Below, piece after piece: positions 765 through 48,532 of a stretch of DNA of 64,000 nucleotides (its first letter is position 1; the number at the start of each line of letters is the position of its first letter). Both the position numbers and the translations under genes were made by a program. The DNA lies in NCBI GenBank assembly GCA_030581615.1, contig JAKTTT010000036.1, positions 62,001-126,000 on the forward strand, written 5' to 3'. The notes under the pieces are model-generated. The model saw nothing but the letters and a program-made list of their open reading frames with translations. It did no database searches and had not been told where the DNA came from. Source of the stretch: Alloascoidea africana (Eukaryota; Ascomycota; Alloascoideomycetes; Alloascoideales; Alloascoideaceae).

Positions 765-1825
765 TGATTCAATGGTTTTTTTTCTTTATCACAGCGTCTA
801 GGCTATTTACACTAAACAACCGTTCTGCTTTTACTCGTCCGAAAGGGGCGCTCTGAAACTTTAGGGAGCCTGAGCTTCCTTCGCTTTATAACTGCTATTC
901 TGGCTTCGTCTGGGGAGAAAAAAGAAGCAACCTACAAGACGGCCTGCGCCTGACCCTTGCGTCGCAACTAATCCGCTAATGAGTTAGCTCACATTAGCAG
1001 GTTAGGCGTTTGGGTTACCTACTCATACCTTCATTTTACTACTTTCCCTCACATCCAAATGCATTACCCGGATATAGTCGCTACTACCATTTCGATATTT
1101 TCAGCATCATGAAAAGGATATCCAAAAAAAAAAACAATTCACTACCTATGACTATATACATATTTATAAAACTTTGCAAAATAATACTTTGAAGTGCATT
1201 GACCGCGAAAACTAAGAGATACCAATAAAATGTCCTTGTAGTTTCATGGCATATCTCTGCAATACTCTCGAAACATCAAAAATAAGATGAGCGACCAATA
1301 GTCAAGGATAATAGCAATGCGTGGTAAACAAAACGTAGGAGAGGAAAACCGGAAAAAGTCAGCGTTGTCCCTGTTCTGATGATGACAAAAGAGGCAAAAT
1401 AATTTGAACTGCTACATCTTCCTATCTGCTTCCTAATTCCCCCTTAGCTTTTTCAGCAGATATGAATGTAAGCACAAAACAACCGAAAAAGAAAGTGCAG
1501 CGATGAGTTCCCATTCTTTGCATGAAGAGAATAAATGAATGAAATTTATAGTTTATAATTTTTAATGTGCTTCCTAATCTTCCCAAAAGTCAGACACGCT
1601 TCAAGTTCCGCAGACAGAAAAACAAAGCAGTCATCTATTGTCAAATTCCTTGTTTCTGTATCAAGACCTCCCTCAAAAACCAACAAAAAAAAATAAAAGG
1701 CATAGCAACAAACAACAATTTGTAAATACTTGCAAAACGTAATAATATAATTGTACCGCTAGAAATCATCAGTGAAATGATAAAGAAATGAAAAAGTGCG
1801 ATCCCGAGACAAGAATGAGAATCCC
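765..1825. other. Intergenic stretch, no gene seen
   Basis: About 1.06 kb between the DBR1-like start and the TAM41 stop. It is AT-rich with only short ORFs, several antisense to each other. It should hold the promoter of the DBR1-like gene on its left and the TAM41 3' end on its right. I see no RNA gene or repeat worth naming. Confidence 0.5.
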
Positions 1826-3310
1826 TTAGTTTCTTTGTTCGGCTTTACCCTGTCTATACTTCGAGGCCTTTTCAGATGCATACTTAATACTACGACCAAT
1901 GCCAGCAGTCAAAGCGCTTTTCAAGCTTTGCGTGATACTTGGTCCAGTAACTGTTTGTCTGATCGCTTTTGAGATTTCTTGCTTCAATTGAGAGTCACCA
2001 GCAATGAGTTTGTCAAATTCTTGGCTCTCCAAAGGAATATTGCTGGAAGAGCTCTTTGAATCTTTTTCATTCAGGAATTTTTGAGCTTGTTCATCCTTTG
2101 ACAAAGCAGTCGAATACTTTTGGGAATAGTTCTTGTAAATTTTTCGTTTGAATGCAGATGGAAGACGGACGACCATGTTTCCTCTTTTCAAAGGATCCAT
2201 ATTCTGTTCCAATATCAAAATAGAGTCGCTGCTGTCCTCGGTGGCTTTTAGAGTAGCATCTGGTGCAGAGGCAACCTTGAGATTTGGCAAAAGAGCCATC
2301 AAGGGGCCATACATGTGTCTAAAATTGTAAAACTGGTTTTCAACAATGTTTCGGACCTTGTGTGGGTTTTCGCCACCAATACTCATTCGAATATCACCCA
2401 TGTAAGAAACCCCGGCAATAGTCGTGTAAAGTTCTTGCTCCGTAAACTTCTCGGGCAATAACAAAAGAGCGACTCTTAACGCGCTTAACAGATTTGTCTG
2501 GTTAATGAAGCGAACTCTAGGGTCGTCTCTGAGAATCTTCACAGGCTTGTGAAGACGACCAGCAAGGTACAATGTGTTCCACTCTGCCAAGTCTTTGAAA
2601 AGTGTATCAATGTTAACAACGCCATACTTGATAACAGTCCCATCGGGCATTTTAACAAATGGGTTGAAATAAACTCCAGCTCCAAATTTATCTTGCAACG
2701 CGCTAACAAACCCACTACCAAGATATTTGAGCATGGAGTAATGAGAAGGGTTCTGATTCATGTTTAACGAGTGCCAATGCTGGGTATAGGTGACACCAAA
2801 GATCATATCAACCTGCGGGTTGGTTGCGGAGCTGCTTTTCCCCTGACTGAAAACACCACTTCCATACCCGAATGCATATCGAATAGGAGCATGGAAATCC
2901 CAAAGAATAGACCTCAGTTTTTTCTCCCCTTCTTTATCCACATGCATGTGCTGATTAAAGCCAAAATTTGCGGGTAATTCGTTAAATCGTTTGAACTCTT
3001 TGTACTTTGATAAATGCGAATCAAGATACGAGTTGACCTCATTGCTATCTGCCCAAAGAGTGCCATTTCCGTCCTTGTTGTCCAAATTTGATTTTGCAGA
3101 TTTGCTTTTCCGATCCGGGAGAATTTGTATTTTGGGAATTTTTTCGGTATCAATCATGCTGATCATGGTTCCATCAGAAGACGAACTTGAGTTTTGCTCG
3201 ATCGAATAAAACCTCAGACATTTGGAGATTGCGGGAATAACGGTAGGAACGGAACGATGGCTAACAAGAGAGTTTCTCAACATTCTGGAGTTTGCATTAA
3301 TCAACATCAT
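1826..3310 (-). CDS. TAM41: Mitochondrial phosphatidate cytidylyltransferase (CDP-diacylglycerol synthase)
   Basis: The 494-residue protein matches the Tam41/Mmp37 family, which makes CDP-diacylglycerol from phosphatidic acid and CTP on the matrix face of the inner mitochondrial membrane, the first step toward cardiolipin. Visible landmarks are FGYGSGVF near residue 148 (the nucleotidyltransferase GSG motif) and VDMIFGV with QHWHSLNMNQNPSHYS just after it. Conserved blocks ending in IRMSIGGENPHKV and the C-terminal LTAGIGRSIKYASEK follow. The first 45 residues are rich in Ser, Arg and Asn with few acids (MLRNSLVSHRS), as expected for a mitochondrial presequence. The protein is longer than the roughly 385 residues of the baker's yeast enzyme, mainly from an N-terminal extension and a Ser-rich insert before the last helix. 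The ATG at 3310 is followed directly by a second ATG; either could be used. Confidence 0.93.
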   Translation of the reverse strand: MMLINANSRMLRNSLVSHRSVPTVIPAISKCLRFYSIEQNSSSSSDGTMISMIDTEKIPKIQILPDRKSKSAKSNLDNKDGNGTLWADSNEVNSYLDSHLSKYKEFKRFNELPANFGFNQHMHVDKEGEKKLRSILWDFHAPIRYAFGYGSGVFSQGKSSSATNPQVDMIFGVTYTQHWHSLNMNQNPSHYSMLKYLGSGFVSALQDKFGAGVYFNPFVKMPDGTVIKYGVVNIDTLFKDLAEWNTLYLAGRLHKPVKILRDDPRVRFINQTNLLSALRVALLLLPEKFTEQELYTTIAGVSYMGDIRMSIGGENPHKVRNIVENQFYNFRHMYGPLMALLPNLKVASAPDATLKATEDSSDSILILEQNMDPLKRGNMVVRLPSAFKRKIYKNYSQKYSTALSKDEQAQKFLNEKDSKSSSSNIPLESQEFDKLIAGDSQLKQEISKAIRQTVTGPSITQSLKSALTAGIGRSIKYASEKASKYRQGKAEQRN

Positions 3311-3849
3311 GGCGGAAAGAAAGGAGTAATCAGTTTCGAAATGTCAGGTACTAGAGACTATAATATATGCGAGAGAATGTTTTGAAGTAGAGTGGTTTAT
3401 GGAAATGTGAAAAGGTAGTGGCACAGGTCGTTCTTTTGGTTTGATAGGCTGTAGTAGTGGTGGTGGTGGTAACAGTATCTCAATCTCTGCTTAGCAAATT
3501 CTCGCAGAAACAAAGCACAAACTTAGTGTTTTTGGCTCGAAAAAGAAAAGAATAATCAAGTATAAACTGTAAAGGGCGTGGTTATGTATTCAAGTCTATC
3601 ACAGATCGGTGTAGTAATCAACGGTGGCGTAGTTGAGGGATTCTTGAGAGTAGAGACTGGGTAGAGAGTAGTAGTGGGTGAGAGGATTCGGCAACACCTC
3701 AACAAAATCCAATATGGAGACGGGTGCACGGGTGTTTTGTCCTCGGATGGCCCCTTCGGTGCACGTGACGCGTTCTGGACCGCCCCGGAAAGACCGAGCT
3801 ACGGACACAAAGCAAAACATGAGAAAAAACTAAGAGATTGGCAAGAAAA
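3311..3849. other. Intergenic, TAM41 upstream region
   Basis: The 539 bases between the TAM41 start and the PIK1 stop contain no convincing gene. A GC-rich patch around 3700-3800 includes a CACGTG E-box at 3762-3767, the core bound by Cbf1-type factors in yeasts. It lies about 450 bp upstream of TAM41, so its relevance is uncertain. A short GGT-type repeat sits near 3455-3470. Confidence 0.4.
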
Positions 3850-6800
3850 CTAACTGTAGATGCCCTGCGTAAGAAGTTGGAACTGGTCATACAATCGCGT
3901 GTAGAGACTTCCCATGCTTTTCAAAATCAGCGAGTCCACGAAGGCGTCCACCTCCGTTTCCGAGAGGTGGAGCGCAAACCGCTGTCTCAACTGCTGGCTT
4001 GTAGCTGGTCCCAGTTGGAAGCACGGAAGCATAGAATCCCGCTGCATCATTTCGACCAGTATAATCAAGCCGTCAGCGTCTTTCCGCAAGGCCTTGAACC
4101 CATCTTTCATTAGTTGCTTGAAGCTCTCAAAGTGAGGCGAGGTGGGCCCACCCATCAAATCCATGTACTCACTCGTCAGTTTGAAAGGTGCTGCTTCAAA
4201 GCCAACCGAGCCAGGGGAATTTGATAGGAGGAAGCCAAAGTCGATATGTATCATGTGGCCTTCATTGTCCAAGAGAATATTTCCATTATGTCTGTCCTTG
4301 ATTTGTAAAAGGTAGCAGATTATAGAATATCCTGCAAGCGATTTGATAAATGCATCCAACGCATGGTCATACTTTTCACTTCCTTCCTCGCCATATGCCC
4401 GTTCAAAATGTTCTTTCAAAGTGGCTATGTTACCCTTTGGATTGGACCCATTCTCAATGGAAGCACCCGTCATTGCCTTTTTGATCGAATGGATACTAAG
4501 AGCATCGGTGATTGTTTCCACAATCCCTGTATTTGCGCTCGTTATCAAAATCCGCATGTTTTTGACCCAAACGTCAACACCACTGGACTTCCAGCTGTTT
4601 GACATAGCGCGGATCAATTGGCAGGCAAAGGCTTCTTGTCTTAGATCGTTCCCTGTTTTGGCAATTATGGAAAACAGGTTCCAGTTTGGAAGATGTCCGT
4701 AAACACTCTCTTTTCGAATTCGCTCCTTTTTCGCCTCCCAGCCTTCTCCGAGGTAGGCAGAGTCCTTTTTGTTCCCGGAACCGTCCTTGTCCGATTCTGC
4801 GTTATCACCATCGGCATCCCCCGTGCCAGTACCGTTACGACCCGCACCAGACGAAGAAGGTGCTATGCCACCTGTTTTTAAATCATTCTCTAATTTACGG
4901 TCTCCCGCTTCTCCATGAATAACATCCAGATTTGTGAATGCTGTATGGTCTTGCATGCTTTGCATATTTGCAATGATTTTGGCCTTGATCGATGAAATTT
5001 CAGAAGGTGGATGTCGTAGCCCCCCAGATTTACTGTCAAGCTGATTCAGCATCACCGCAGCTATCCTCATATGTGTGGCAAGTTCGGTAGCATTGGGAAT
5101 GGTATCCTGTTCATTGGGACCAGCACTTGCACCATCTGAAATCGACGTCGTTGCCGCTCCTGAAAACGAGAGATTGGGAGATCTTGGAGACCCTTCAGCA
5201 GATATGGGTTTGTTGTTCAGATTGGGAATACTAGATAAAAGTAACTCTTTTTCGACCGCAGCGGCTACTGTCTTCCCATCTCTTGCAGCACTGGCAATAA
5301 CCACATCCCCAAGGTCTGCTTCCTCGGTTCTTGATTTTGGAGTAGCCTCAGATATATCTTCTTCGGTTCCATTTTGCAAAGCTGTTCCTTCGGCCTTTCC
5401 GATTGTTAGAGCATCTTCGCCATCTTTTTTTTGTGCATCTTCATATTGGCGTTGATGGAAAGACGCCGTAAAGCCCAAATCAAATATATAATTTCTATCT
5501 TTCCGACTGGACAGTATTTTTCTGTTGTTTTCAGATAGAGGCTCAAAGTCACCATCATCACTTAGATATTCCACAAAAAGCAGATATGGCACTCTTTCCG
5601 CAGAACTGAGAACTGAAGCTTCTGCAGGTGAAATTCTCACAATGCGATGAAACCTTCCTGGTTGATTTGGCGGTAATAATGTAGGTATGTCAACCTCAGC
5701 GGGCAAATCTCGATTCAGCATTGCAATTTCTGCCCGCAGAGCGGAAAGTCGAGCTTCTTTGGGAACAAGTCCCAATCTTGCAGATATCGTCTCGAGCGCA
5801 ATGAAAAATTGTGATTCGCATTTATAATAATTACATTTGAGCATTCGATTGCGTGCAGTCAAGGGTAGATTTGAGCTCGAGGAAGAGAAGCTTCTCATGA
5901 GTCTGTCAGATTTTGAGTCTGGCCCTGGAGAAAGACTTTTCGACCGTATTGCAGATTCGGAAATAGATAGAGCGGCAATTCCAGATGATAATGTTTCATC
6001 GGTCTCTGTACGATGCTGGCGAAGATTGTGAGGAGCACTTCCTGTACTGTCAATGCTCTGGCGTAGTTTCTGTCGTATATTCAGATCTGGCAGAGACGAT
6101 GTTTCGTCATTTGAATAAAAGTTTTCCGCGTGAAATAGGCTTTCATCATCCATATCTGTATTGTACGAAAGAGCTGGAGAAGCTGGCATTGTTTCGGCTC
6201 TTTTCGACGATCCTTGAGCGGGAGTGCTGGTTCCGTCATCAAACCGTTGTTCATCTGTTTCTAAGCGATTCTTTTGTTTTTTCCTTCTTGCCTTTGTAGC
6301 AACTCTGAAGATGAATGATCGTTGTTTCCTGCCTTGACTTTTCGCTAAAGGGCCTATATATTCGGTCACCTGAGGCAACCCAATAGCTGCAGCAATGGCA
6401 GAGGACAGAATTAGTGCAGGAGCACTATTTTCCCTAAATCTCGTGGAAGGAGGAAATCCTGCATTGAAAAGAATGTATTGTAACTTGTTTAGGACTCGCC
6501 TGCTGGCTTGAAACCCATAACACTCGGGGTCGTCTGCCAGGTCAGTTAGGTGAGCTTGGAGATACCAAAAAGTCTTAAAAGTGATGTTAGAGTAAAATGG
6601 GAAACAACAAAATAACAGAGCAAAAAAAAAAACCAACAACTCACCAATAGGGTGAAATGGGTATACTGCGAACTCAGTTCAAGCAATAGGTCTTCTAGGG
6701 CCATTGATTCGGTTTCGACGGTCACCAAAAGCTGGCACAACTGTGGCACGAAAAACTCTATATCTTCATAATTATAGCTTCTCATTTTCTGGCACAAATA

Positions 6801-13759: not shown

Positions 13760-16700
13760 CTACGCCCAACCAATGATGAAAATTGCGACCAAAACGTTAA
13801 CAATAGACTTTAAAGATGGAGAGGTGATCTTTGATGAATCGCCTTTATATCCTTCTGGTAGTCCAGCACCAGGAGAGGTAGCAGATGGTTTTCCCACATT
13901 TGTTCCAGTATACACAACATTTGGATTGGCATTGGTCGGCGGTCTCGCAGTATCTTCCCCAGCTGGTGGAATTGGTGGAGCAGGACCGTTTTCTGAAACA
14001 TGAGGCACGGGTGGTGGTGTTTCTAAAGGAATTTCCTTAGTTGTTGTGACTCCAACTTTTCTAGAATCAGTTTCGAAATCAGTGCAGGTGGTGGTGATGA
14101 AAATTGTTCCAGGTGCTTCAGCATTGGGTCTTCCTCCATTAGCAGAAGGCTTGGGGCCTGCTTCTCCATTAGTTCCGTGTACAGTAGTAATTCCTGAATG
14201 AGCATGTCCTGCTTCTTCTTCTGGGCAAATGGTCGTTGTAACATAACCTCCTCCTACCACCGGGGTAACCACTACAGTAACATGAACTGGTCCTTCTTCG
14301 GCGCTCGGCTCAACATTGCCACCAGGTTGAGTATTCTTTCCTCCTTCAGTAGTGCATTCAGTGGTAACTGTTTTGGTAGATCCTGCTGGAAGTGGAGTAG
14401 AAGCAGTATCCAGATGAGTTTTGGTTGCACAACGAGTACAGTCTATCGTAGAGCCGTGTTTCGATGAGATGGAACTGCCAGTATTTGATGTCGCTGCTCC
14501 ATTAGAAGTTTTTCTAGGCACAGACGAACCGTTGGATTCCGTTACTCGCGAGGAATGTCCGTTTGCACTAGAAGAACTACTAGATGCTGTTCCTTGAGAA
14601 GAAGGATTTGTACCCGACGAACCAACAGGTGTTGATACTGCTGAAGATAATCCACTTGTACCAGAAGAACCGCCAGGGGTTGCTACCTGCGAGTGACTTT
14701 CTTTTGTACCAGAAGAACCGCCAGGGGTTGTTACTTGCGAGGGACTTTCGTTTGCACCAGAAGACTGACTAGGAATGGAAACATAAGAACCCGTGTTGCT
14801 TGTAGATGGCTGGGATATGGTACTGGGATCGCCTCCAGCTCTTTCAACAATAACACTCCCAGATGCCGCTGGATTCCATACTTGTACTTCGAGTTCGTCC
14901 CATAGATGAGAAGCCCCCTGTTGATGTGCTGTTTCTTCATTACCAAACCTCACAGAAATTGGGTAGCTTTCCGGTTCATGTTTTCCACCTTTGATCTCGA
15001 ACAGGTATTGCACAATTTCGGGATTGGTAAAAGTACCTGTGTAGCCAAGTTCCAAATGAGTTTCCGAACAATCGGTTTCGACTTGCCGCGCTCCCACGGG
15101 TACCAGGTAATTAGGATATCCAAGTTCATTCACCAGATTGGAGCCAAACACTGCAATTTGATCACAATTGATAGAAAAGTTCAGATTGGAGTCAGCCAAA
15201 ATGTGACCACCAGAGTTTGTGGAATCAGAGTTTTGGGAATCAACCAAAATGTGACTAACAGAGTTTTTGGAATCAACGGGGACGTTCACAGTGACAAGTT
15301 TCATGTTGAAAATTTTCTGAACATACCCGAAGGGCAAACTTGAGTCAATTTGTCCAAAAGTTAGGCTGTTATGGATAGCACCTCCAACAGTTAGAAATTC
15401 AAAATCATGCTTTCCGTTAAAGTAACAAGCGTCTTGAGCGCGTAAACCCGTTGAGATAAAGATCGATCCTGAGGTTCCCCTTGGAATTTCATCATCAAAA
15501 CGAACAGTCAACTTATCAGCACCTTCGTCAAACAAAGCTTGGCCAAGCACATGCCCAGGATCCTTCTCATCAGTGATATTGAAAGAAGATATAGCAATAT
15601 CAAAGTCTGCAGGTAGCGAAACTTCAAAAAAGTCCTTTGCAGAAGCTCCGGACTTTAACTTAAAATTTATAACGACTTTAAAGTAGTCAAATGGGCTAAT
15701 AACATCGGCGCTATTAGATTTTTGTTGTTGTATCTCAATATCGGTAATGGCGTCCAGTCCCTTGACACTTGCCTTACCTAAAGGCGCTGAAGTAGCCACA
15801 ATTTCCGAAGATTTACATGTTTTGGTGCTCATCAATCCAGGTTTATTGGAAGGATGTCCGGCAGTGGTGGGCGAAGAAGTGTGAGGGTTTGTATTCCCAG
15901 ATCCTGATGGGAGTGAAATGCTGTTCAAAGTAGTGGTTGGACTTGTGGGGTGCTCGCTATTGCTCGGAGTGGTTGATATTTGAATAGGAGAATCAGTACC
16001 GGTAACTGTTATTGTCTCAACACCACTCACCGAGGCTCTGTCTTTGCAAGCATAATCGTTAAAACAATAAATATCGGAGACATGACTTTCTACGGCATGA
16101 AGAGCGCAAATTCCAAAGAGCCGAGCTTTGCAGTAAGAAACAGTAAGAACAGCTGGAGCCATGCAAGTGTATCCTAGCACTGGTGACGTTTTGAATAGAC
16201 CTTCATCACCACCAGCGACTGAAAACTTTTTCAGATTGCTTCCGATCTGATTGATCTTATTCGAATGGTCGTATAGAATTGTAGGTTCCTTAAAAGATGT
16301 GGGTGTGGATAAAATAATCTCTAAAATATCAGAGTCTTTATAAGGATCGTTGGAGATATCAATTTCGTACTGAACATTGTACTTCCCTGGGTCCCCATTT
16401 TTCTTTGACAAGTCCATGGTTATCTGAGTATCAACAATGTTGTTATGACAGTTCAAGAGACAAATTTGCTCCAAGTGACAGGCATCATTCGGTGGCGGAG
16501 AGCTTGGACGGGTTGTGGCCGGCACATTTGGACTAGACTGAGTCACTGGAGGCGGCTGGAGAGTAGACTGTGCTGGCTGTGTTGTGACTCCTTGGATACT
16601 GCTGATGGTGGGGTTGTTACTACACGAGTTTTCTTTGAAGCAATAAATGTCGGAGTCGTAAGTGACGACTTTGGAAAGAACACAGTCTCCAAAAAGCCTG

Positions 16701-17305
16701 TTTACACAATGCTCCACCATAATTGTGACTGGAGGCACACACGCCAATCCCGGTAAATCGTCCGCATTCAATCTTGCAAGGTCGGTAGTGGCAGTAAACT
16801 TTTTGTGGTTTTTTCCAATCATATTTACTCCAAGATATCCATCATATAACGATTTTTCTTTAATGGAAGAAGTCCTAGAACTGATTGAGATCAGCATTAT
16901 ACTATCTTCTGTGTAAGGCTCGTTCGTTAAATCAATGTCAAAAGTCACTTGATAGTCATCATTTCTCCCGTAGGACAAGTCCTTGACCATTTTCTCAGCA
17001 ACCACATTATCTTGGCAACCGTTGACGCAAACGCGTTGGAGATGGCATGAATCAGAAGGTGTATTTGAAACCGAAGGTGTATTTGAAACCGAAGGTGTAT
17101 TTGAGGCAGAATCTGGTAAAACCAAACTGCCTGGAACATTTACAAAAGCAGGAGGCAATGAGGATGGTGGGGCAGAGAGGAGAGAGGATCCGAATGAACC
17201 AGAAGCCGAACTTGTTCCACTGCTTGACGGAATGCTTGCAAAACCATTAGCAAGATCCAAAAGCAAACCAAGAAACACATAAAGAGAGAGTGATCGAAAG
17301 CTCAT
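13760..17305 (-). CDS. GPI-anchored cell-wall adhesin with tandem cysteine-rich modules and an agglutinin-like domain
   Basis: The start at 17305 gives 1181 residues beginning MSFRSLSLYVFLGLLLDLANG, a clear signal peptide; the frame is open 53 codons further up but without such a signal. Order: Ser-rich linker with NTPSVS repeats; cysteine module 1 (about 86-226); Pro/Ser/Thr linker; module 2 (about 276-420); linker; an immunoglobulin-like region (about 495-808) resembling the Als/Sag1 agglutinin N-domain (SPFDYFKVVINFKL, FFEVSLP, GSIFISTGLRA). A Ser/Thr/Gly stalk with repeats of the type SQVxTPGGSSGT follows, then a typical fungal adhesin stalk (TKTVTTECTTEG, YVTTTICPEEEAG). The last residues (SLKSIVNVLVAIFIIGWA) form a hydrophobic tail for GPI attachment. 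It is likely linked to wall glucan and mediates adhesion or mating agglutination. The ligand cannot be told from sequence. Confidence 0.85.
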   Translation of the reverse strand: MSFRSLSLYVFLGLLLDLANGFASIPSSSGTSSASGSFGSSLLSAPPSSLPPAFVNVPGSLVLPDSASNTPSVSNTPSVSNTPSDSCHLQRVCVNGCQDNVVAEKMVKDLSYGRNDDYQVTFDIDLTNEPYTEDSIMLISISSRTSSIKEKSLYDGYLGVNMIGKNHKKFTATTDLARLNADDLPGLACVPPVTIMVEHCVNRLFGDCVLSKVVTYDSDIYCFKENSCSNNPTISSIQGVTTQPAQSTLQPPPVTQSSPNVPATTRPSSPPPNDACHLEQICLLNCHNNIVDTQITMDLSKKNGDPGKYNVQYEIDISNDPYKDSDILEIILSTPTSFKEPTILYDHSNKINQIGSNLKKFSVAGGDEGLFKTSPVLGYTCMAPAVLTVSYCKARLFGICALHAVESHVSDIYCFNDYACKDRASVSGVETITVTGTDSPIQISTTPSNSEHPTSPTTTLNSISLPSGSGNTNPHTSSPTTAGHPSNKPGLMSTKTCKSSEIVATSAPLGKASVKGLDAITDIEIQQQKSNSADVISPFDYFKVVINFKLKSGASAKDFFEVSLPADFDIAISSFNITDEKDPGHVLGQALFDEGADKLTVRFDDEIPRGTSGSIFISTGLRAQDACYFNGKHDFEFLTVGGAIHNSLTFGQIDSSLPFGYVQKIFNMKLVTVNVPVDSKNSVSHILVDSQNSDSTNSGGHILADSNLNFSINCDQIAVFGSNLVNELGYPNYLVPVGARQVETDCSETHLELGYTGTFTNPEIVQYLFEIKGGKHEPESYPISVRFGNEETAHQQGASHLWDELEVQVWNPAASGSVIVERAGGDPSTISQPSTSNTGSYVSIPSQSSGANESPSQVTTPGGSSGTKESHSQVATPGGSSGTSGLSSAVSTPVGSSGTNPSSQGTASSSSSSANGHSSRVTESNGSSVPRKTSNGAATSNTGSSISSKHGSTIDCTRCATKTHLDTASTPLPAGSTKTVTTECTTEGGKNTQPGGNVEPSAEEGPVHVTVVVTPVVGGGYVTTTICPEEEAGHAHSGITTVHGTNGEAGPKPSANGGRPNAEAPGTIFITTTCTDFETDSRKVGVTTTKEIPLETPPPVPHVSENGPAPPIPPAGEDTARPPTNANPNVVYTGTNVGKPSATSPGAGLPEGYKGDSSKITSPSLKSIVNVLVAIFIIGWA
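14640..14760 (-). repeat. Tandem repeats in the adhesin stalk
   Basis: Two to three near-identical units of about 50 nt coding TPGGSSGT plus a Ser/Gln-rich stretch lie side by side here. Related degenerate units continue toward 14600. Length change in such repeats alters how far an adhesin reaches from the wall. Confidence 0.7.
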
Positions 17306-20300
17306 GTTCAATACACAAATAAACGAAAAGTAGAGTATTGACAGAGTATGAAGCGAATTGAACTGGCAATCTGGATGGCTAGGGACAGTACTTGTTAAAT
17401 CTATATATAAGGAACGATTCCTGGAAAACAAAATTTCCATAAATGTTTCTTGAGTTAAAAGCAAATAACTAAATCATAATCTTGAAGATCAGCTCAGTCT
17501 TCGAGCTTTTCTTACAAACTCCAAGCCAATTAACCAAACCGTGTGACTAAATCTGGCATAAGGTTAAGATTCCATCGTCTAGAACTAAGCATTTGCTATT
17601 GTAGAGATCTGAAAGAAATTGTGATAGACCATCTTACGCTTCTGTAGGCGAGTCGAGCATTTGATAATAGTAATGATTTTAGCCCAACTTTATACGTCTT
17701 TTTCCATGGTATTGGTAAACTTACTGAAAGATTAGCTATGTGGTGTATCTCTTTTAGTTGGGTTCAATATCAGAGAGTTGCAGAACAACCTAACTGTAGT
17801 GAGCCGTGGAATTCTTGATCGATAAAGAATAAAAAATGATTTTCTCAGCAGCCAGCTTGAACGAGAAATTACACGCTTGTCAAGTTCAATGTTCAGAATG
17901 ATAATTTTATTGATTAATAGAAAAGGATACCTTATCAAAGAATGCTACGTGCTAGAATAAACTGATGTTAGAAAGACTTGGTTAAGACCAGAATTCCTAA
18001 AACTTTTTTTCTATCTTTCAATCACTCATAGTTTCTACCCTTGTACAAGTTTGCGACATCCCCTCTGTAGCATATTCTAGAATGATTGCTTTAAAAATTG
18101 TAAGAATTTATATATAAAACTTTTGTAGTTAGCCTTTTCATAAAGCTGTAGTATCTCATTCCAAGCAAAGAGGTGTTTATAGCTAGCTATCCAATGAGTT
18201 ATATCTCAATAATAAAACGATACATCTGTAAGCTATAAAAGACTGCCAAATAAACACAGTCAATACCTAATATTTAGATACATTTTTTATGTCAAAAGTC
18301 CAAGGTTTTTAACCTAACTTGGCCTTTTATGTTGTACTTGCAACTCTGGATTTGAGCACAAGTCGTATTATAGAGCAAACACACACTCAATTCCCAAAAA
18401 AAGAGGTTTAACCTTTCAAATTAGTTTGTGAACCTCCTTTCAAGTATAATAACTCCGGATTAAAGCTAATACAACTCGCCACTGTCTTTCTAAAGAAGCA
18501 AAGGAGTGTCATGAGATATTCCAATAGTGTAAGAAAAAACTAGCAAGCTCCGACTATGGGAAATCTGTAGACCTTAATTCTAGCCTAAATCGTTTACAGA
18601 AAACTTACCGCCATAAATGTATAATAACAACACAAATAGATCATCTTACATCTTTGGAAGCTTGAAAATATGACTATAATTTTCGTAAATAGCTTGCTCA
18701 GTCCTTCTTAATTCCTGAAATGGATTATTCCTTTCCGTTTTTGCTCTTTTCGATATAAAGAAGATAATAGGATTAACCAGCTGGGGATAGTTTCCTGTTA
18801 ATCAGACAGGTTAGTTTTATTTGCTCCCTTCTTGGGGGGTTCATGATTGAAATAATCTCAATCCCAGATGGTGCCTAATCGTAGGAGCCCCAATACTCCA
18901 ATTGACATTCTAACAGTTGCGAGTTTTAGATCTCTCTAAATAAGTTGTAGCTACTTCTTTTTTGAATGCCTTTTGGATAGATTTCATATACGGAATTGTG
19001 TGGTAGATGACTGGTGCCTAATCAGCTTCTAGTCTATCTTGTCAAGTTTTGACAGTTATGACCTAACTAAAATCAATTTATAGCTTTCAAACAACTTAAG
19101 ATCACGCTGTCACTCAATAAATGTGTTTCCAAACTCAATTCACAGTTTGCTTGACGTGCAATAAATGGTAATACTTGTGGCTTGGAAATAGAGCAATACA
19201 GATTGTATTCTCGAAGCAGCTCAAATTTGATGAATGGACTCCTTGAAGCTGTAAGTAATGCTCAAAGATGCAATTTTAGTTACTGACACTGTTTGAAGAC
19301 AAATATCGAGGCGTGTCAAAGTTCAAGCAAGATACATGGTGTTTCAAGGAGTACTTTAATTTGTATTAGCGCCATTACATAAACTAATTTATTCATAATC
19401 TTTCTCTCCTAGATTATTTCAACCACAATAACTAATATGGAAGTAATTCATTTCAGCAATCTGGATCGGAATACTTTTTCCATAGAATGTCGATATAAGA
19501 AGAATGATTCAACACTGTTTTTTAAACCTTAAAACTAAAGGTCGACCTAAAACTAAATATTTACAAATTTGGCCTTGTAAATCCTGATATCTTCTTGCGA
19601 TCCATATTTCCACAAAGCAGAAGAGAAAGATACATTCAGAACATGTCATAAATCTATTTTTGGCCCCAAGAACACTTTCGTTAGTGTATACGCGGTATAG
19701 AGGCTTTTTCAACTGGTTAGAACAGCTCTCAATCATTGAATCGTTTCAAAGTAACTTTGATTGCTATAAGAATGTTCTATATCTCAAACTTACCGACTTA
19801 TAAAAGGAAAAAGAACCATAAACTTCCTGCTCCATAATAGGGGCTTTTCTTTGTACAGTTTTTGGAAGTCCATCAAAACAAAAAGAAAACTGCATTTGTG
19901 GAGATTCAAACTCTAATTTTGACCCATTTCTGCTCACGATACTTGGATGGTAAATCTATAATTTCAATACAAAGGCCGCTTCTTAGTTTAGCGCGAAGCA
20001 TAGATGTTTTCGAAATACTTCGGCAAATTAGGCTTTGAACGAAAGAATTCATGACCTACCGTCAATCGTTTCCTGATTATCTATTTGTTCTTTGGTTAAC
20101 CTTACAGATTTCAACGGAGATTCAATTGGAACATGGATTGAATTCAACGGCGAAGACCGGGTCTCTGAAACCAATTTGTCCTTGTTTATTAGCTTATTAC
20201 CCATTTTTAACTGATTTCCACATGCACTTTACTCCATGTTTGAAGTCTTCGATATTTATGTTTTGGTCTCGTAGAGTAGTTCTGGCGAACAGCAATATAA

Positions 20301-37140: not shown

Positions 37141-37592
37141 CTGCGGATCTGTTCGAGTAAATTTGAGAAGTGAGACAGGCAGCCGACAAAGGCAACAATG
37201 TGGAAATGGTTATCCAGGAAAAGTGCTGAAGACTGTCTTGTTCTCTAGTTAAGGGTGAGGGTGGAAAAAAACAAAAGTAAATTGTTACCCGGAGAAATGT
37301 TTGGGTCACGTGGAGCTCCCTGAACTTTCACTTTACCCAAATGGAAATGTAGCATTTCGAGTGTTTACGAAAATGTATTATTGAGATAGAGTATATATTA
37401 AGAAGCTAGCTGCCAGCAGTTTAGCTACACAGAAATTATAAAAATACTTTGAACATAAAGAGAACTGAAAAATAACACAATAACATAGACTGTCCATTGT
37501 GGAAGCAATTATGCTCAAAAAGACTGGAAAACTTGTGTTCAAATCTTATGAGCACATAAAATCCAGCCTTTAATATACCAGAGGCTAGTTGT
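37141..37592. other. Intergenic between NUP116 and the first pheromone gene
   Basis: About 450 AT-rich bases serving as NUP116 upstream sequence and, nearer the pheromone gene, its 3' untranslated region. No further gene is seen. Confidence 0.5.
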
Positions 37593-37806
37593 TTAAGCGA
37601 TGGTGCAAGTCCATGGGACGACCTGTCCGTAGTCTAAAATAATCAAATTTTGTTAGTCTTTGCGCCTTTGTCAAGTGTGTTTTCTCCAAAGAGATATTGA
37701 TGAGTCGCTAAAAGCGCTTTCGCTTACACATGAACTCGTCCTTGTCTTCCTTCTTGTTGGAGGAGGAGGCGTAGTTGGCAGCGATATTGTTAATTTGAGC
37801 AGACAT
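37593..37806 (-). CDS. MFA1: Lipopeptide mating pheromone precursor (a-factor/M-factor type), copy 1
   Basis: A two-exon gene missed by simple ORF searches. Exon 1 is 37806..37728 (ATG plus 25 codons plus one base) and exon 2 is 37633..37593. The 94-nt intron begins GTAAGC, has GACTAAC and ends TTTTAG. The 39-residue product starts MSAQINN, has a Ser/Asn/Lys/Asp-rich pro-region (ASSSNKKEDKDEF), and ends MYYGQVVPWTCTIA. The last four residues form a CaaX box, predicting farnesylation, trimming and carboxymethylation at Cys36. The C-terminal YGQVVPWTC lines up position by position with the fission-yeast M-factor YTPKVPYMC, which precedes CVIA. The mature end is identical to copy 2 at 47811, while the pro-region and introns differ. 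The gene would be active in a-type cells. The numbers 1 and 2 are arbitrary. Confidence 0.88.
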
Positions 37807-37876: not shown

Positions 37877-37888
37877 CCATTTAAATAG
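37877..37888 (-). promoter_or_regulatory. TATA-box element shared by both pheromone genes
   Basis: The minus-strand 12-mer CTATTTAAATGG ends 71 bp before the ATG of copy 1. The same 12-mer occurs 68 bp before the ATG of copy 2, although the surrounding promoter DNA differs. Confidence 0.6.
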
Positions 37889-38020: not shown

Positions 38021-38998
38021 TTATAACCTAGTTTTATTGGAGTATTTGATTCTTTTGAAAGTCGTCAGGCTTTGAAAATCATCTTTTAGCTGGCAAAAAT
38101 GGTAGCCCATTGTACTGGTTTTGTTCGTTTTGGTCGGATGGTGCATGGATTGGCTGAAATTATCAGGAACGTTTTTAACCCAATTCAGCACTAAATGGAG
38201 CAGCATGGGGCTAAAGTTGGTCATTTCAACTACCCTCTCAACAGAAAGGAAAGCATTTATCAACTGATCCGAATTTTGAAACAAATCGCTTTTTGGTTTT
38301 TGGATTAGATTAGAAATATTTGACAAGGAGTAAACCGGAATCGTTTTTATGCATCGACTTGCTGCCACATCTGGCTCCAAATAGCTTGAAACGGTGTACT
38401 CCCTTATTCATAGGGTGAAGTGGGATCAAAAGATATTAGAAAATGGCTGTAAAGATCAATTAAAATCTGTCTCTCGGTGCTATCCTTGTCACTCATACGT
38501 TTACAAGGGAATTTCAGCACTTGATTGTCATTTTTGAGTTCATCAAGAAGCCATAATTGTTGACATAATTTGTTTCAAATTCCTCTAACTGTTCATGAAC
38601 GAAAAATAAGCACTATTAGTTGCCTTTTGGTAAAATCAGCAGCTCTTTTAGAAAAGAATAAAACTCTCTTGATCAAAACCATTCATTTTAAGAAATGATC
38701 ATTCTCTTTTTGGTCCTGAAACTTTCCTAGGAGTTCCTTTTTGGATATTTGATAACCTAAACAGGCTCTTTTGAAGCAATACTACAATCCATTTCGAACA
38801 ATTTGTATTAGATTCACCTGCAACTGGAAAGTGAATTTCCCTTTTTGTTAATGAATGTTGACATCTACGCTTTTGGAAACAAGCTACAATGTACGAGTCA
38901 TCCTTCAGGTACGAAGTGGGGGATTTTTCACTGGGATTTTCAGTGGTTTGGGAGGTAGGAGAATCTAGATTGGGTTTATGGGACGCAGGCACAGTTTT
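38021..38998 (-). pseudogene. Possible broken or unspliced host gene of unknown family
   Basis: Several protein-like frames follow one another on the minus strand without a single continuous ORF or clear ATG. They are about 38998..38699 (ending TPRKVSGPKRE), about 38610..38520 (EQLEEFETNYVNNYGFL), about 38545..38410 (LDELKNDNQVLKFPCKRMSD then LIDLYSHFLISFDPTSPYE) and 38410..38021 (EYTVSSYLEPDVAASRC onward). The middle pieces overlap in different frames, as after small insertions or deletions, and the last two abut at 38410. A multi-exon gene with weak splice sites is the alternative. The stretch around LYSHFLISFDPTSPYE faintly recalls an RGS-type domain, but I do not assign it. The region also lies in the upstream DNA of the first pheromone gene. 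Confidence 0.3.
38277..38577. promoter_or_regulatory. Ste12-type pheromone-response motifs upstream of copy 1
   Basis: Exact TGAAACA (38277-38283) and its complement TGTTTCA (38571-38577) lie about 470 and 765 bp upstream of the copy 1 ATG. This is the core bound by Ste12 in Saccharomyces. They overlap the possible broken gene, so function is uncertain. Confidence 0.3.
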
Positions 38999-42540: not shown

Positions 42541-45500
42541 TCAAGACTTTATGCAAATTTGTGGGCTTCTTGAAGTTCTTGCGAGCTGTGTCAAGTCAAC
42601 AGTAGAGGAATGAGGAGTCGGTGCTTTTGAACGATTGTGGGTCATATGGCTCTTCACCAAGTGGCCTGCAGCCAGAGCAGAACATAGAGAAAGTTCAGCG
42701 GCCAAAACACCAGAAGCGACTATTCTAGCTAGCATTCTTGCATTTTGGCCTGGATTTGTAGGGTGTGGTCCGCGAACGCCTAGGAGCTCCAGCATTGCGC
42801 CTTGAGGCTCTAGGATTGTTCCCCCGCCAATCGTGCCAACCTCTATCGAGGGCATCGAAACCGAGATTTGGAGATTTCCGTTGTTGTTTTTCATGAGAGT
42901 AATACAGTTTGAGGACTCGACGTTTTGAGCCGGATCTTGACCACAGGCAAGGAAAATTGCCGTTACTAGATTCGCAGCGTGGGCATTGAAACCACCAACG
43001 CTGCCAGCCATAGCGCTTCCAATGAGGTTTTTACTTACATTCAGCTCGACAAGAGCATCAACATCGCTTTTCAGTACCTTTCTGACGACTTCACCGGGCA
43101 CTATGGCTTCTGCCACCACACTTTTTCCTCGACCTTCAATCCAATTAATTGCTGCTGGTTTTTTATCAGTACAGTAGTTCCCGCTCAGAGAGATTACTTC
43201 CATATCTTCAAACCCGCAATCTTCTCTGAGATATTTGAGAGAATATTCGACACCTTTTGAGATCATATTCATGCCCATGGCATCTCCTGTAGTGGTTCTG
43301 AATCTGATGAACAGTAACGTGCCGGCAAGTGCAGTAGTAACATGTTGCAACCTTGCAAATCGCGAAGTAGAGTTAAATGCCCTTTTCAAAGTCTTTTGAC
43401 CTTCTTCGGAGTCAATCCAGATTTTGGCCGCTCCGGCTCTAGTTAACGAGGCAAAGGAAACACAAGGGCCTCTGGTCATGCCATCTCTTGTAAGAACAGT
43501 GGTGACGCCGCCCCCAGCATTAATTGCTTTACAACCACGCATAGTACTGGCAATGAGACAACCCTCTGTAGTTGCCATTGGGATATGGAACTCCTTTCCA
43601 TCGATAAGAAGGGGACCTGCTACACCAACTGGCAAAGGCATGTAACCAATGACGTTTTCACAACACGCTCCAAATACCCGATCATAGTCGTAATGTTCAA
43701 AAGGCAATCGATTCGGTTCTAAGAGTGAATGCGCTTTTGCAATTTCTGCTATTGCAAGCCTACGAACCAGAACTGCTCTTGATGTGTCCTCGAGTTTTTT
43801 TTCTAGCGCATAGAGAGGAAGTTTATCATGGGTTACCAGTTTCGCTATTTCCTGATCGTTCAACTCTTTAAGTTTTCCCGATTTTTGAATTGCTGAGATT
43901 TCCTCGAGGCTTCTGACCACTGCAACTGCTGTTGGCTTAGTAGGTAAAGGTACGACTTCTTTGTGTGTCACAATAGGTTTTTCAATTGCTTTCGGTATGG
44001 GAAGTGGAGCTGGCTTTGGCACTGGTTCCTCCAGCTTGGGCGCGTTTTGCTTTTCGTCGGAGCTTATCGGTGCAGCAGCCTTCAATAGATACCCATTAAT
44101 GACAATGCTGAGGATTAGAGAGATAAATATAACCTTGCTTAAAAACCGATCTGTTATGGCATTGTTCACGTTCTCATAGCTGGAATAAAGTGCATCCTCA
44201 AACATAACCGCAAATCGCGGGTATTGATATGTTCTAACAGGCAAGAACGTAACCAAGGCATGTGTCACTCCCATAGCTTCCAAATAGTTTTGGACTAAAG
44301 GCTGTGAGATGACAATAGACCTGTTTAGGATAGACTCGTCAGAACTTGTTAACTTGAACGGGAGATGCTTAACGCTGTAGATATTGAAAAGAAGGAATCC
44401 AAAAATGCTTAACAGTTTGAAAGCGTATATCCGTAATCCTCTGTACTTTGGTTTTACCCCAAAGAGATAGCCTTTGGTCCTCTCTGGATTCTGAATGTTT
44501 TTCTTTGTGCTATCGGGAACGTTCGAGACACCTTCTTCCTCCAATGTAGCACGGATATTAAGGTCTCTTTTGATCTTGCTGATTTGAATCTTTACCGCCA
44601 GGATGGAAGAGTAGAACGAAAACATAAGCAAGCAATCAAATATCAAGGTAACAGCACCCAAAACGCAAAATTCTGATAGTTGGGGGATTCGAGCAATAAC
44701 AACAAGAATCAGGATCGCCAGTGCAAAAGAATAGTGCTTCAGAATTGAAACACCAGTTTGCAAAGCTGCACCTTTGATCAGCTTTTCAACTCTTTGGTTT
44801 TCCACATCTTTCCCAAGTTTTAGACCGTGAAGTACACTTTCTGTGTAACTGATCTTGTCATTAAACCCAACACAAACCACCAAGAAAGGCAGTCCCTCGC
44901 CTAAGCTCCTCATTGAAATTTCAACACCAAGGGTTTTTGTGAAGAAGGTTCCAAGGAGGAAGCTTAGGAAACTGGAGATGAGAACGGCTGTTGCCAACCA
45001 AAACCGAGATCCTACCTTACGCATAGAATAGAAGAGATGGCCAAATGTCCAAAACATTGCCAGATAGACACCAGATATCAAAATAATGTCAGAAGTGTCA
45101 GAGCCTTGGATTATGTTCTTGATGCTTATTGATGCAAACTGAAGATACTCGATCCAGCTGAATGACTTTCGAATTGGACGAAGACGCCATGGGGAACTCG
45201 AATCCTCGGTAGTTTTCTCAATCTCTCTTATTGTCTCAGAGGTTTGGTCTTTTGGGACGATGAAAAATCTTGTTGTTCCATCGTCTCCAATTTGATCCTT
45301 TTCATCGTCAGTATAAAGTTCGGGACCCACAAGTAGGGAAGAACCTTGCAGATTTAGAGCGTCTGGATAGAATGGTATTTCTTCCTTATTGTCTCGAAAC
45401 CGATATGTCAAAAGTGAATAAAAAGGTGTTTCTGGATCCGCCTCGTTGTGTGCGATTTCTACTTGGGACCAAGTTTGGACAAACGGATCTGCTGTGTAGG

Positions 45501-45669
45501 CAAAGACGAGATCGGAGCCCGATCCAACATCGTTTCCAGGAATATATATGTCCAGAACAGAGAGGTATGTGGCCGACGCAAGCATGGAGATGGTCACCAT
45601 CACTCTCACCGGATGGAACGCTGCATGCTGGGCTAGAAGAGCAAAGGCTGAGGTCAACAGCTCGAGCAT
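42541..45669 (-). CDS. HMG1: 3-hydroxy-3-methylglutaryl-CoA reductase
   Basis: The 1042-residue enzyme makes mevalonate in the ER membrane, the rate-limiting step for sterols and for farnesyl and geranylgeranyl groups. The N-terminal half has a first membrane helix near residue 25 and a sterol-sensing-type cluster of helices at about 185-360 ([37 protein letters not shown]). A Pro/Lys linker follows. The catalytic domain begins near 590, with [18 protein letters not shown] at about 670, DAMGMNM at about 794, GTIGGGT at about 945 and the catalytic His in KSHMTHNRS near 1008. The first ATG in the open frame is at 45669 ([12 protein letters not shown]). The 22 codons above it start from TTG and are not used here. 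It lies head-to-head with the second pheromone gene across 2.1 kb. Confidence 0.96.
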
Positions 45670-46775: not shown

Positions 46776-47669
46776 TGAAACAAATCTTTCCAAGTAATGT
46801 AAAGATGCATGAAACAAAGTTCGCTCAGAAAACTCAAAATTAGTAGAGCTTTTAGATGCTCCTCAAGACGCTAGAATTATGCAAAAACGTGGTTTAACAT
46901 TGTTAAACTGTTATTAACAACAAGTAAATAATTGTATTTGTTTCTTTTTGGTTTTGTTACTTCCCTGTTGATCCCAATAGTATTTAGTGGTTGCTTGACG
47001 ATTCTCATTATCTGACTAAACTTTAAATTGTAAGGATTTCCCAAAAGAGACTAAAATTCAGGTTTAAACTCACGTTAATGGGCCCAGCTTCTTCACTAAT
47101 GGGTAAAGCAATAGGAGTTAAAGGCTGGCTGGGTCGGTCCTACGATGGCAATTGCATGTGTTTAAACATTTGTATTCTTTGAATATCCTAATTAGCCAGA
47201 TTGAGAAAGCAAAGGGGGCAGAATCGTAGGATTTGCTCCTTGTTGGCAGAGAGATCAACACCCTCAGTCTAGAGGAAAGGCTCTTATCGCACCGTTTCTT
47301 TTAACAACCGAATTTTTACACTAAAGGAAAATTAAGAGAGCTTTGAACTTTGTACCTTTGTGCTTCCAGTTCTAGGAATCTTAGATTTCTTACAAGAAAG
47401 GTCATCCTCCAAGAATTAGGACATGGTTCCCCAGGATTTGTGCCTGACAGCTTAGCCACGCTCCAAGTTGTTTCTTTTCAATTTGGAAATTATGCTAGGA
47501 TCAAGCCACTCGATTGTTTCAATTTTGTTGCACATTGGGAAACCTGATTTTCCTAAAGCCCTTAATTGGGTGATCCAAGTTCACTTTGTTGTCTATTCAA
47601 TGTTGAAAAAGGAGAGAAAAGGCATGTATAGGGATTCTCAACCTTGTACTATCCGCAGTATCTGTTTCA
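46776..47669. promoter_or_regulatory. Four Ste12-type pheromone-response elements
   Basis: TGAAACA occurs at 46776-46782 and 46810-46816, and its complement TGTTTCA at 47515-47521 and 47663-47669. The nearest is about 142 bp upstream of the copy 2 ATG. This 7-mer is the Ste12 pheromone-response core in Saccharomyces. By rough base composition I would expect fewer than one copy in 2.1 kb. Confidence 0.5.
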
Positions 47670-47731
47670 AAAAGGTTACAAGATTACTCTTCTTTAGAGA
47701 ATTCTTTTATCTGAAGAATTCCAACCAAAAA

Positions 47732-47743
47732 CTATTTAAATGG
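47732..47743 (+). promoter_or_regulatory. TATA-box element of pheromone copy 2
   Basis: CTATTTAAATGG, identical to the element of copy 1 and at almost the same distance from the ATG (68 versus 71 bp). Confidence 0.6.
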
Positions 47744-47810
47744 CCTCATTTCTCTTCATTGTCAAATCATCATTCAAACCAATTCACTCTTTGCAATCAA
47801 ACTATTAGAA

Positions 47811-48004
47811 ATGTCTGCACAAATCAATAACGTCGCTGTTAACCACGCCTCCTCTTCCAACAAGAAGGAAGACAAGGACGAGTTCATGTGTAAGTGACTG
47901 GAATATTATTTATTTTTGAGTCTGGAACTTTCACAATATGCTAACGGCTTTTCATTTCTATAGACTACGGACAGGTTGTCCCATGGACCTGCACCATCGC
48001 CTAA
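47811..48004 (+). CDS. MFA2: Lipopeptide mating pheromone precursor (a-factor/M-factor type), copy 2
   Basis: Exon 1 is 47811..47889 and exon 2 is 47964..48004. The 74-nt intron starts GTAAGT, has TGCTAAC and ends TATAG. The encoded 39 residues begin MSAQINNVAVNH, share the pro-region ASSSNKKEDKDEF with copy 1, and end MYYGQVVPWTC plus TIA, a CaaX box. The protein differs from copy 1 at only three positions, all in the first twelve residues. Several synonymous sites and the whole intron sequence differ, so the mature pheromone appears to be under selection rather than copied recently. Processing by farnesyltransferase, CaaX protease, methyltransferase and an N-terminal protease, followed by Ste6-type export, is expected from known a-factor biology. 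The exact N-terminus of the mature peptide (Y27 or Y28) is not visible in the sequence. Confidence 0.88.
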
Positions 48005-48027: not shown

Positions 48028-48532
48028 AGTGTTGATGTTCCTTAATGATAAACTTGTTTTGCGGATCTGATCTTTCAATTTGATCTAGGTTTTCAAGCAG
48101 CATGGAAAGGGTGGAATCTCAACCTCCAGGCCATCTCACTGGGGTTAATGTTTTTATTTTACTTCCTTTGTTTTTGTTTATATTATCTTTGTAATTGTTA
48201 GAAATCGGTTGTAACTGCTGGCAGTTTCACCATTTTATATATGTTAATTGAATCCCAGATGAGTTTTTCTATAAAATATGTTGGTAAACTTAGATCGAAA
48301 CTGAAAGTCCCGGCGAAGTCCGGCGCCACACTATCTAGATCAAAGATAAGCATAATGGAATTATTTTCAACAGATCAGATAAATCAACATTCCTTTTCAA
48401 AAGGTTACTAGAAGAACAGCTACGTAGAATGTGTTGTAAGTCTAAAACAAAAGTGTCTTTTAATTTTTTTTTATCGTCAATGTATTTCAATTGAGGAATT
48501 GTGGAATGGATAGAAATGGAAGCTAATCTTAA
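48028..48532. other. Convergent intergenic region
   Basis: About 500 AT-rich bases between pheromone copy 2 and the FUR1 stop. No gene or notable repeat is seen. Confidence 0.5.

Follow-up and report, generated by a model that had tools for sequence, protein, structure and literature searches.

In our judgement, a budding yeast's a-factor-type lipopeptide mating pheromone is highly likely to be encoded by two redundant genes, each with an intron, in the stretch of DNA analysed here (hereafter the window: the whole stretch, at its full length of 64,000 nucleotides, which is part of contig C36 in an assembly of 23.18 Mb and 138 contigs). The locus under study (copy 2) and its sister gene (copy 1) very probably represent two tiny split yeast genes that encode one and the same fat-tagged mating signal peptide. 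An earlier note on this DNA had called copy 2 a farnesylated mating pheromone gene, and that call is supported by several lines of evidence—the polar pro-region and the CaaX end of the precursor, the existence of a gene pair with an identical C-terminal part, the conserved splice signals, and the co-occurrence in this genome of prenylation enzymes and receptors of the STE3 type. The note had further proposed two exons with clean splice signals and a 39-residue precursor, all of which could be reproduced from the sequence, and its exon boundaries at 47889/47964 agree with our gene model. The spliced product of copy 2 (47811-48004, plus strand) is MSAQINNVAVNHASSSNKKEDKDEFMYYGQVVPWTCTIA, 39 residues in length and ending in YYGQVVPWTC-TIA, and the gene is organized as follows:

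47811..47889, plus strand: exon 1 of copy 2, with the start codon, the polar pro-region MSAQINNVAVNHASSSNKKEDKDEFM and the first base of the Tyr27 codon
47890..47963, plus strand: intron of copy 2, 74 nt, phase 1, GTAAGT...TATAG
47941..47945, plus strand: CTAAC, a branch-site-like motif in the intron of copy 2, 18 nt from the intron 3' end
47964..48004, plus strand: exon 2 of copy 2, (Y)YGQVVPWTC-TIA and stop; predicted mature pheromone and CaaX box

The intron splits the Tyr27 codon after its first base, leaving the other two bases to exon 2, which continues with YGQVVPWTC, TIA and the stop codon. Overlapping the start of exon 1 in another frame is a 112-residue ATG frame (window 47492-47830, plus strand), probably a chance occurrence. 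The sister gene lies about 10 kb away in the opposite orientation (37806-37593, minus strand), and its product is MSAQINNIAANYASSSNKKEDKDEFMYYGQVVPWTCTIA:

37728..37806, minus strand: exon 1 of copy 1, the paralogous gene
37634..37727, minus strand: intron of copy 1, 94 nt, GTAAGC...TTTTAG, with CTAAC at 37656-37652
37593..37633, minus strand: exon 2 of copy 1, encoding the identical (Y)YGQVVPWTC-TIA

Retention of the cysteine and of the exon structure, which the earlier note had named as decisive for its reading in close relatives, was checked on this paralogue, and copy 1 keeps both. Exon 1 is conserved between the copies with mostly third-position changes, and in both introns CTAAC lies at precisely the same distance, 18 nt, from the 3' end. 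A 251-base DNA search and a degenerate pattern for the end of exon 2 (up to two mismatches) recovered these two loci only in the 23.2 Mb assembly; more diverged copies could escape both. Copy 1 is flanked by a gene for a Nup98-type nucleoporin and an RCC1-repeat gene, and copy 2 by genes for HMG-CoA reductase and UPRTase. The HMG-CoA reductase gene (window 42541-45669, minus strand), coding for an early enzyme of farnesyl supply, sits between the two pheromone genes, probably by coincidence.

The sequences around both genes share several short elements, located as follows:

47732..47743, plus strand: TATA-like CTATTTAAATGG, 79 nt before the start codon of copy 2
37877..37888, minus strand: TATA-like CTATTTAAATGG, 82 nt before the start codon of copy 1
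48213..48224, plus strand: common downstream element AACTGCTGGCAG, at offset 208 after the stop codon of copy 2, possibly within the 3' UTR
37410..37421, minus strand: common downstream element AACTGCTGGCAG, at offset 171 after the stop codon of copy 1
47515..47521, minus strand: TGAAACA upstream of copy 2
47663..47669, minus strand: TGAAACA upstream of copy 2, second site
38277..38283, plus strand: TGAAACA upstream of copy 1
38571..38577, minus strand: TGAAACA upstream of copy 1, second site

The common 12-base words are not significant by themselves, as 23 of the 300 shuffles of the upstream flanks and 10 of the 300 of the downstream flanks also reach words of at least 12 bases. The heptamer TGAAACA is identical to the pheromone response element consensus of S. 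cerevisiae, which may not be the element used in this lineage. It occurs twice per 1 kb upstream in each copy (dinucleotide-shuffle P = 0.007, for a motif chosen post hoc), once upstream of each STE3 gene, and once or twice in 3 of 17 control promoters, which were window promoters chosen by the analyst; none was found upstream of MATalpha1. Since this motif was picked after a common word containing it had appeared, and since it is one of 13 heptamers present at least twice in both pheromone promoters (most of the others A-rich), we treat it as supporting evidence only.

Drawing on the a-factor and M-factor pathways, a plausible maturation route can be outlined for the precursor, which ends in C-TIA in both copies and whose residues 1-24, read directly from the sequence, are rich in N, S, K, D and E and contain no long hydrophobic core. 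The spliced mRNA would be translated into a 39-residue cytosolic precursor, and Cys36 of the C-TIA box would be farnesylated; TIA would then be removed and the new C-terminus methylated. Cleavage of the polar pro-region just before Tyr27 or Tyr28 would release the mature peptide, to be exported and detected by a STE3-type receptor, with expression of the genes presumably specific to one mating type. Three classes of processing enzyme for such a route are encoded in the genome, which has farnesyltransferase (RAM1-like), CaaX protease (STE24) and methyltransferase (ICMT) genes. Among three prenyltransferase beta-type loci, the RAM1-like protein matches the solved structure of the CaaX farnesyltransferase beta subunit Ram1 at 4.5e-103, the STE24 product matches Ste24p at 1.8e-137, and two genes belong to the ICMT family of STE14-type methyltransferases (L023 and L024, on contigs C64 and C65). 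None of the sequence-level features examined speaks against the a-factor/M-factor class, two of them (the relative constraint of the mature region and the promoter elements) counting neither way, and the pair probably works like other members of that class. Six peptide strings of the C-terminal region had no occurrence in the open literature searched, a scope outside which lies the catalogue of Srikant et al. (2023), described in PMC10569646 as a search of Saccharomycotina for a-factor genes; that catalogue may already list this gene.

On the receptor side, two genes of the STE3 family (PF02076) were identified, both open frames scoring above the Pfam cut-off, with E-values of 1.8e-75 and 1.1e-71:

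L005 1060-2385 on contig C37, minus strand: STE3-type receptor, 441 aa
L006 1474-2820 on contig C46, plus strand: STE3-type receptor, 448 aa

The two paralogues share 43% identity over 350 columns, and a comparison with solved structures returned one chance-level match only. In a 12-row tree, both receptors form a fully supported clade with the database proteins P0001 and P0124; the C37 receptor pairs with P0001 at 94/94, just below the program's support star, and the branching order of the C46 receptor and P0124 is left unresolved. Given this clade and the pairing of the C37 receptor with P0001, the duplication looks lineage-specific but not recent, and the homologues P0001 and P0124 suggest that it predates the split from a relative. 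The mating-type gene MATalpha1 was found as an open frame on contig C31, with an ANTH + I/LWEQ (SLA2-like) gene about 5.4 kb away. Just downstream of MATalpha1 (contig C31 ~201.9-204.8 kb; L016 ~1381-4290), open fragments resemble, by eye, a decayed gag-pol retroelement.

How far could such a gene arise by chance? A grammar written after the gene had been seen (ATG; a GTAAG, GTATG or GTGAG donor; CTAAC; a TAG or CAG acceptor; 25-60 residues; CaaX followed by a stop) retrieved exactly copies 1 and 2 from the window, while 40 dinucleotide shuffles of the window produced one hit in 3 cases and none in 37 (mean 0.075). Extrapolation from that rate predicts about 27 chance hits per 23.18 Mb, which lends some room to the idea that the open frame is accidental or the duplicate pair functionless. 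With the grammar fitted afterwards and this many hits expected genome-wide, a single gene alone would be unconvincing, and the comparison of the paralogues becomes the real test. Between the copies, 12 of the 120 coding bases are changed, 9 of them at third positions (binomial P = 0.0039), with a dN of 0.033 against a dS of 0.547. In the protein, only residues 8, 10 and 12 differ; from residue 13 to residue 39 the two products are the same, every base change there being synonymous. In this two-sequence comparison, pro-region residues 13-26 are as identical as the mature part, so the constraint is not limited to the latter but extends 14 residues into the pro-region. No similarity is detectable between the introns (164 of 200 shuffles reach the same score or better), yet the upstream and downstream flanks still align above all 200 shuffles each (local alignment, simple two-base-block shuffles). 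The third-position bias, the low dN relative to dS and introns that align no better than shuffled sequence all disfavor chance; together with the alignable flanks, they indicate that the pair is not a recent copy and that its protein is under selection. A chance or functionless origin thus appears very improbable, and the comparison favors a pair of spliced genes whose protein product is under constraint. The paralogues also speak to the use of an unspliced frame—a product of 28 residues ending in FMCK in copy 2, with a different end in copy 1. Exon 1 of copy 2 does read two codons into the intron before meeting a stop, but the two copies end differently when read through, whereas their exon 2 encodes the same residues with none but synonymous base changes, and the donor, CTAAC and acceptor are kept in both introns. 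We regard this frame as having almost no claim to be the functional one.

With splicing and protein-level constraint as the favored reading, a further alternative concerns what the peptide does: a short prenylated peptide in a non-mating role, e.g., a membrane-anchored or quorum-type lipopeptide, could be matured by the same enzymes. CaaX processing is general, and a-factor is not alone in ending in CaaX, as stated in PMC10569646. The presence of two STE3 receptor genes, however, argues against such a role, as do—modestly—the pheromone-response-like motifs upstream of both copies. Moreover, scanning stretches around the STE3 genes and the MAT locus with this grammar brought up no further two-exon CaaX candidate; the scan covered 11 sources (L015-L018, L029-L034 and the window), L026-L028 not having been scanned separately. 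The single-exon CaaX frames, three in L030, L031 and L033 and two in the window, were unremarkable by eye. Taken together, a non-mating role seems improbable, and a lipopeptide mating pheromone remains our preferred interpretation of the pair.

The retention of two STE3 paralogues with no STE2 detected is a more unusual, though unsettled, lead than the pheromone pair itself. No Pfam match to STE2 appeared in the whole assembly at E 0.001 or 10; as the control genomes are prokaryotes and offer no positive control, the negative result is only suggestive. A genome-wide search for a Yarrowia-like alpha-factor (GEPxWKR) gave four single matches against one for the reversed-pattern control, and these were rejected as an alpha-factor gene because none of the four lies in a frame that contains repeated units. 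If STE2 were lost or unrecognisable, and STE3 duplicated with both copies kept, mating could run on lipopeptides through the two STE3 receptors in a basidiomycete-like manner, the linked pheromone genes serving one or both of them. We deem this scenario unlikely.

Placement of the host within the budding yeasts (Saccharomycotina) is very probable, judging from an HMG-CoA reductase tree of 20 rows (the window protein plus 19 of 120 listed; five omitted, including the only filamentous fungus; no outgroup). Here, the window protein pairs with P0004 (64% identity over 990 columns), and both belong to a supported group that also contains Nadsonia, Yarrowia, Trichomonascus and Blastobotrys, although they lie outside the subclade of these four and apart from Saccharomyces, Ogataea and Candida. 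Built on one gene and with no outgroup, the tree does not fix the species. In the window, an Rfam search and ARAGORN (run with the bacterial code) gave no match, and a 2031-residue frame had none among solved structures. A 1226-residue frame (window 13760-17440, minus strand) has a weak, sub-cut-off match (E 4e-4) to the Candida ALS agglutinin domain and may represent a cell-surface adhesin. On contig C21, a carboxylesterase-type gene (L010) shows three stops inside its six-frame match, reflecting either introns or a decayed copy.

Genes for a-factor rank among the hardest yeast genes to annotate, and ordinary gene finding easily misses them; in the 2026 genome paper on Trichomonascus vanleenenianus, the mating pheromone a gene is given as not detected (PMC13130702). 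Because the phase-1 intron isolates the mature peptide almost exactly in exon 2, the structure described here provides a usable search pattern for other intron-bearing yeasts—exon 2, CTAAC 18 nt before the 3' splice site, and a CaaX end. Moreover, the predicted peptide is a ready ligand for the two STE3 paralogues, making receptor duplication and pheromone specificity directly examinable.

Basidiomycete lipopeptide pheromones derive from CaaX-type precursors and act on STE3-type receptors, of which a genome holds more than one gene; the present system shares the precursor type, the receptor type and the multiple receptor genes. It differs from the basidiomycete pattern in that MATalpha1 lies about 5 kb from an SLA2-like gene, an ascomycete-type MAT arrangement, and in that the scanned surroundings of the two STE3 receptor genes yielded no two-exon pheromone candidate. 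In S. cerevisiae, MFA1 and MFA2 encode short CaaX precursors whose mature peptide starts with Tyr and is sensed by the Ste3 receptor, and neither gene is known to have an intron. The present genes resemble them in number, short precursors, CaaX end, Tyr start and a Ste3-type receptor, and differ in having an intron and in the sequence and length of the mature peptide. In S. pombe, which very probably belongs to a different subphylum from this yeast, three M-factor genes (mfm1-mfm3) with varying prosequences and introns are described as encoding one identical mature peptide, YTPKVPYMC, which is farnesylated, methylated and recognized by the GPCR Map3 on the partner cell (PMC6342294, PMC3713066). 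On that description, the redundancy of genes for one mature peptide is shared, with two found here versus three. The likeness to M-factor on which the earlier note had leaned is real but modest—YGQVVPWTC and YTPKVPYMC (the latter from PMC6342294) share 4 of 9 residues plus one aromatic/aromatic position—and the case for a pheromone does not rest there, four identities in nine being weak evidence by themselves. The resemblance may nevertheless be functional, as VP, the aromatic residue and Cys fall in the C-terminal half, the part described as important for the M-factor receptor (PMC3713066); the S. octosporus M-factor, YQPKPPAMC (PMC6342294), differs from that of S. pombe in that C-terminal region. 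The MFa gene of Pichia kudriavzevii, compared here by its published description, encodes a 41-residue precursor ending in CTIA and has a second, decayed copy upstream (PMC6053246). The CTIA box is common to MFa and both of our copies; unlike the Pichia arrangement as described, both copies here are open and face opposite ways at a distance of about 10 kb, and each contains an intron. Redundant genes per mature peptide (PMC6342294) and the CTIA box (PMC6053246) are already known, according to these sources, and the gene pair is a new and convincing case within a well-known class of genes.
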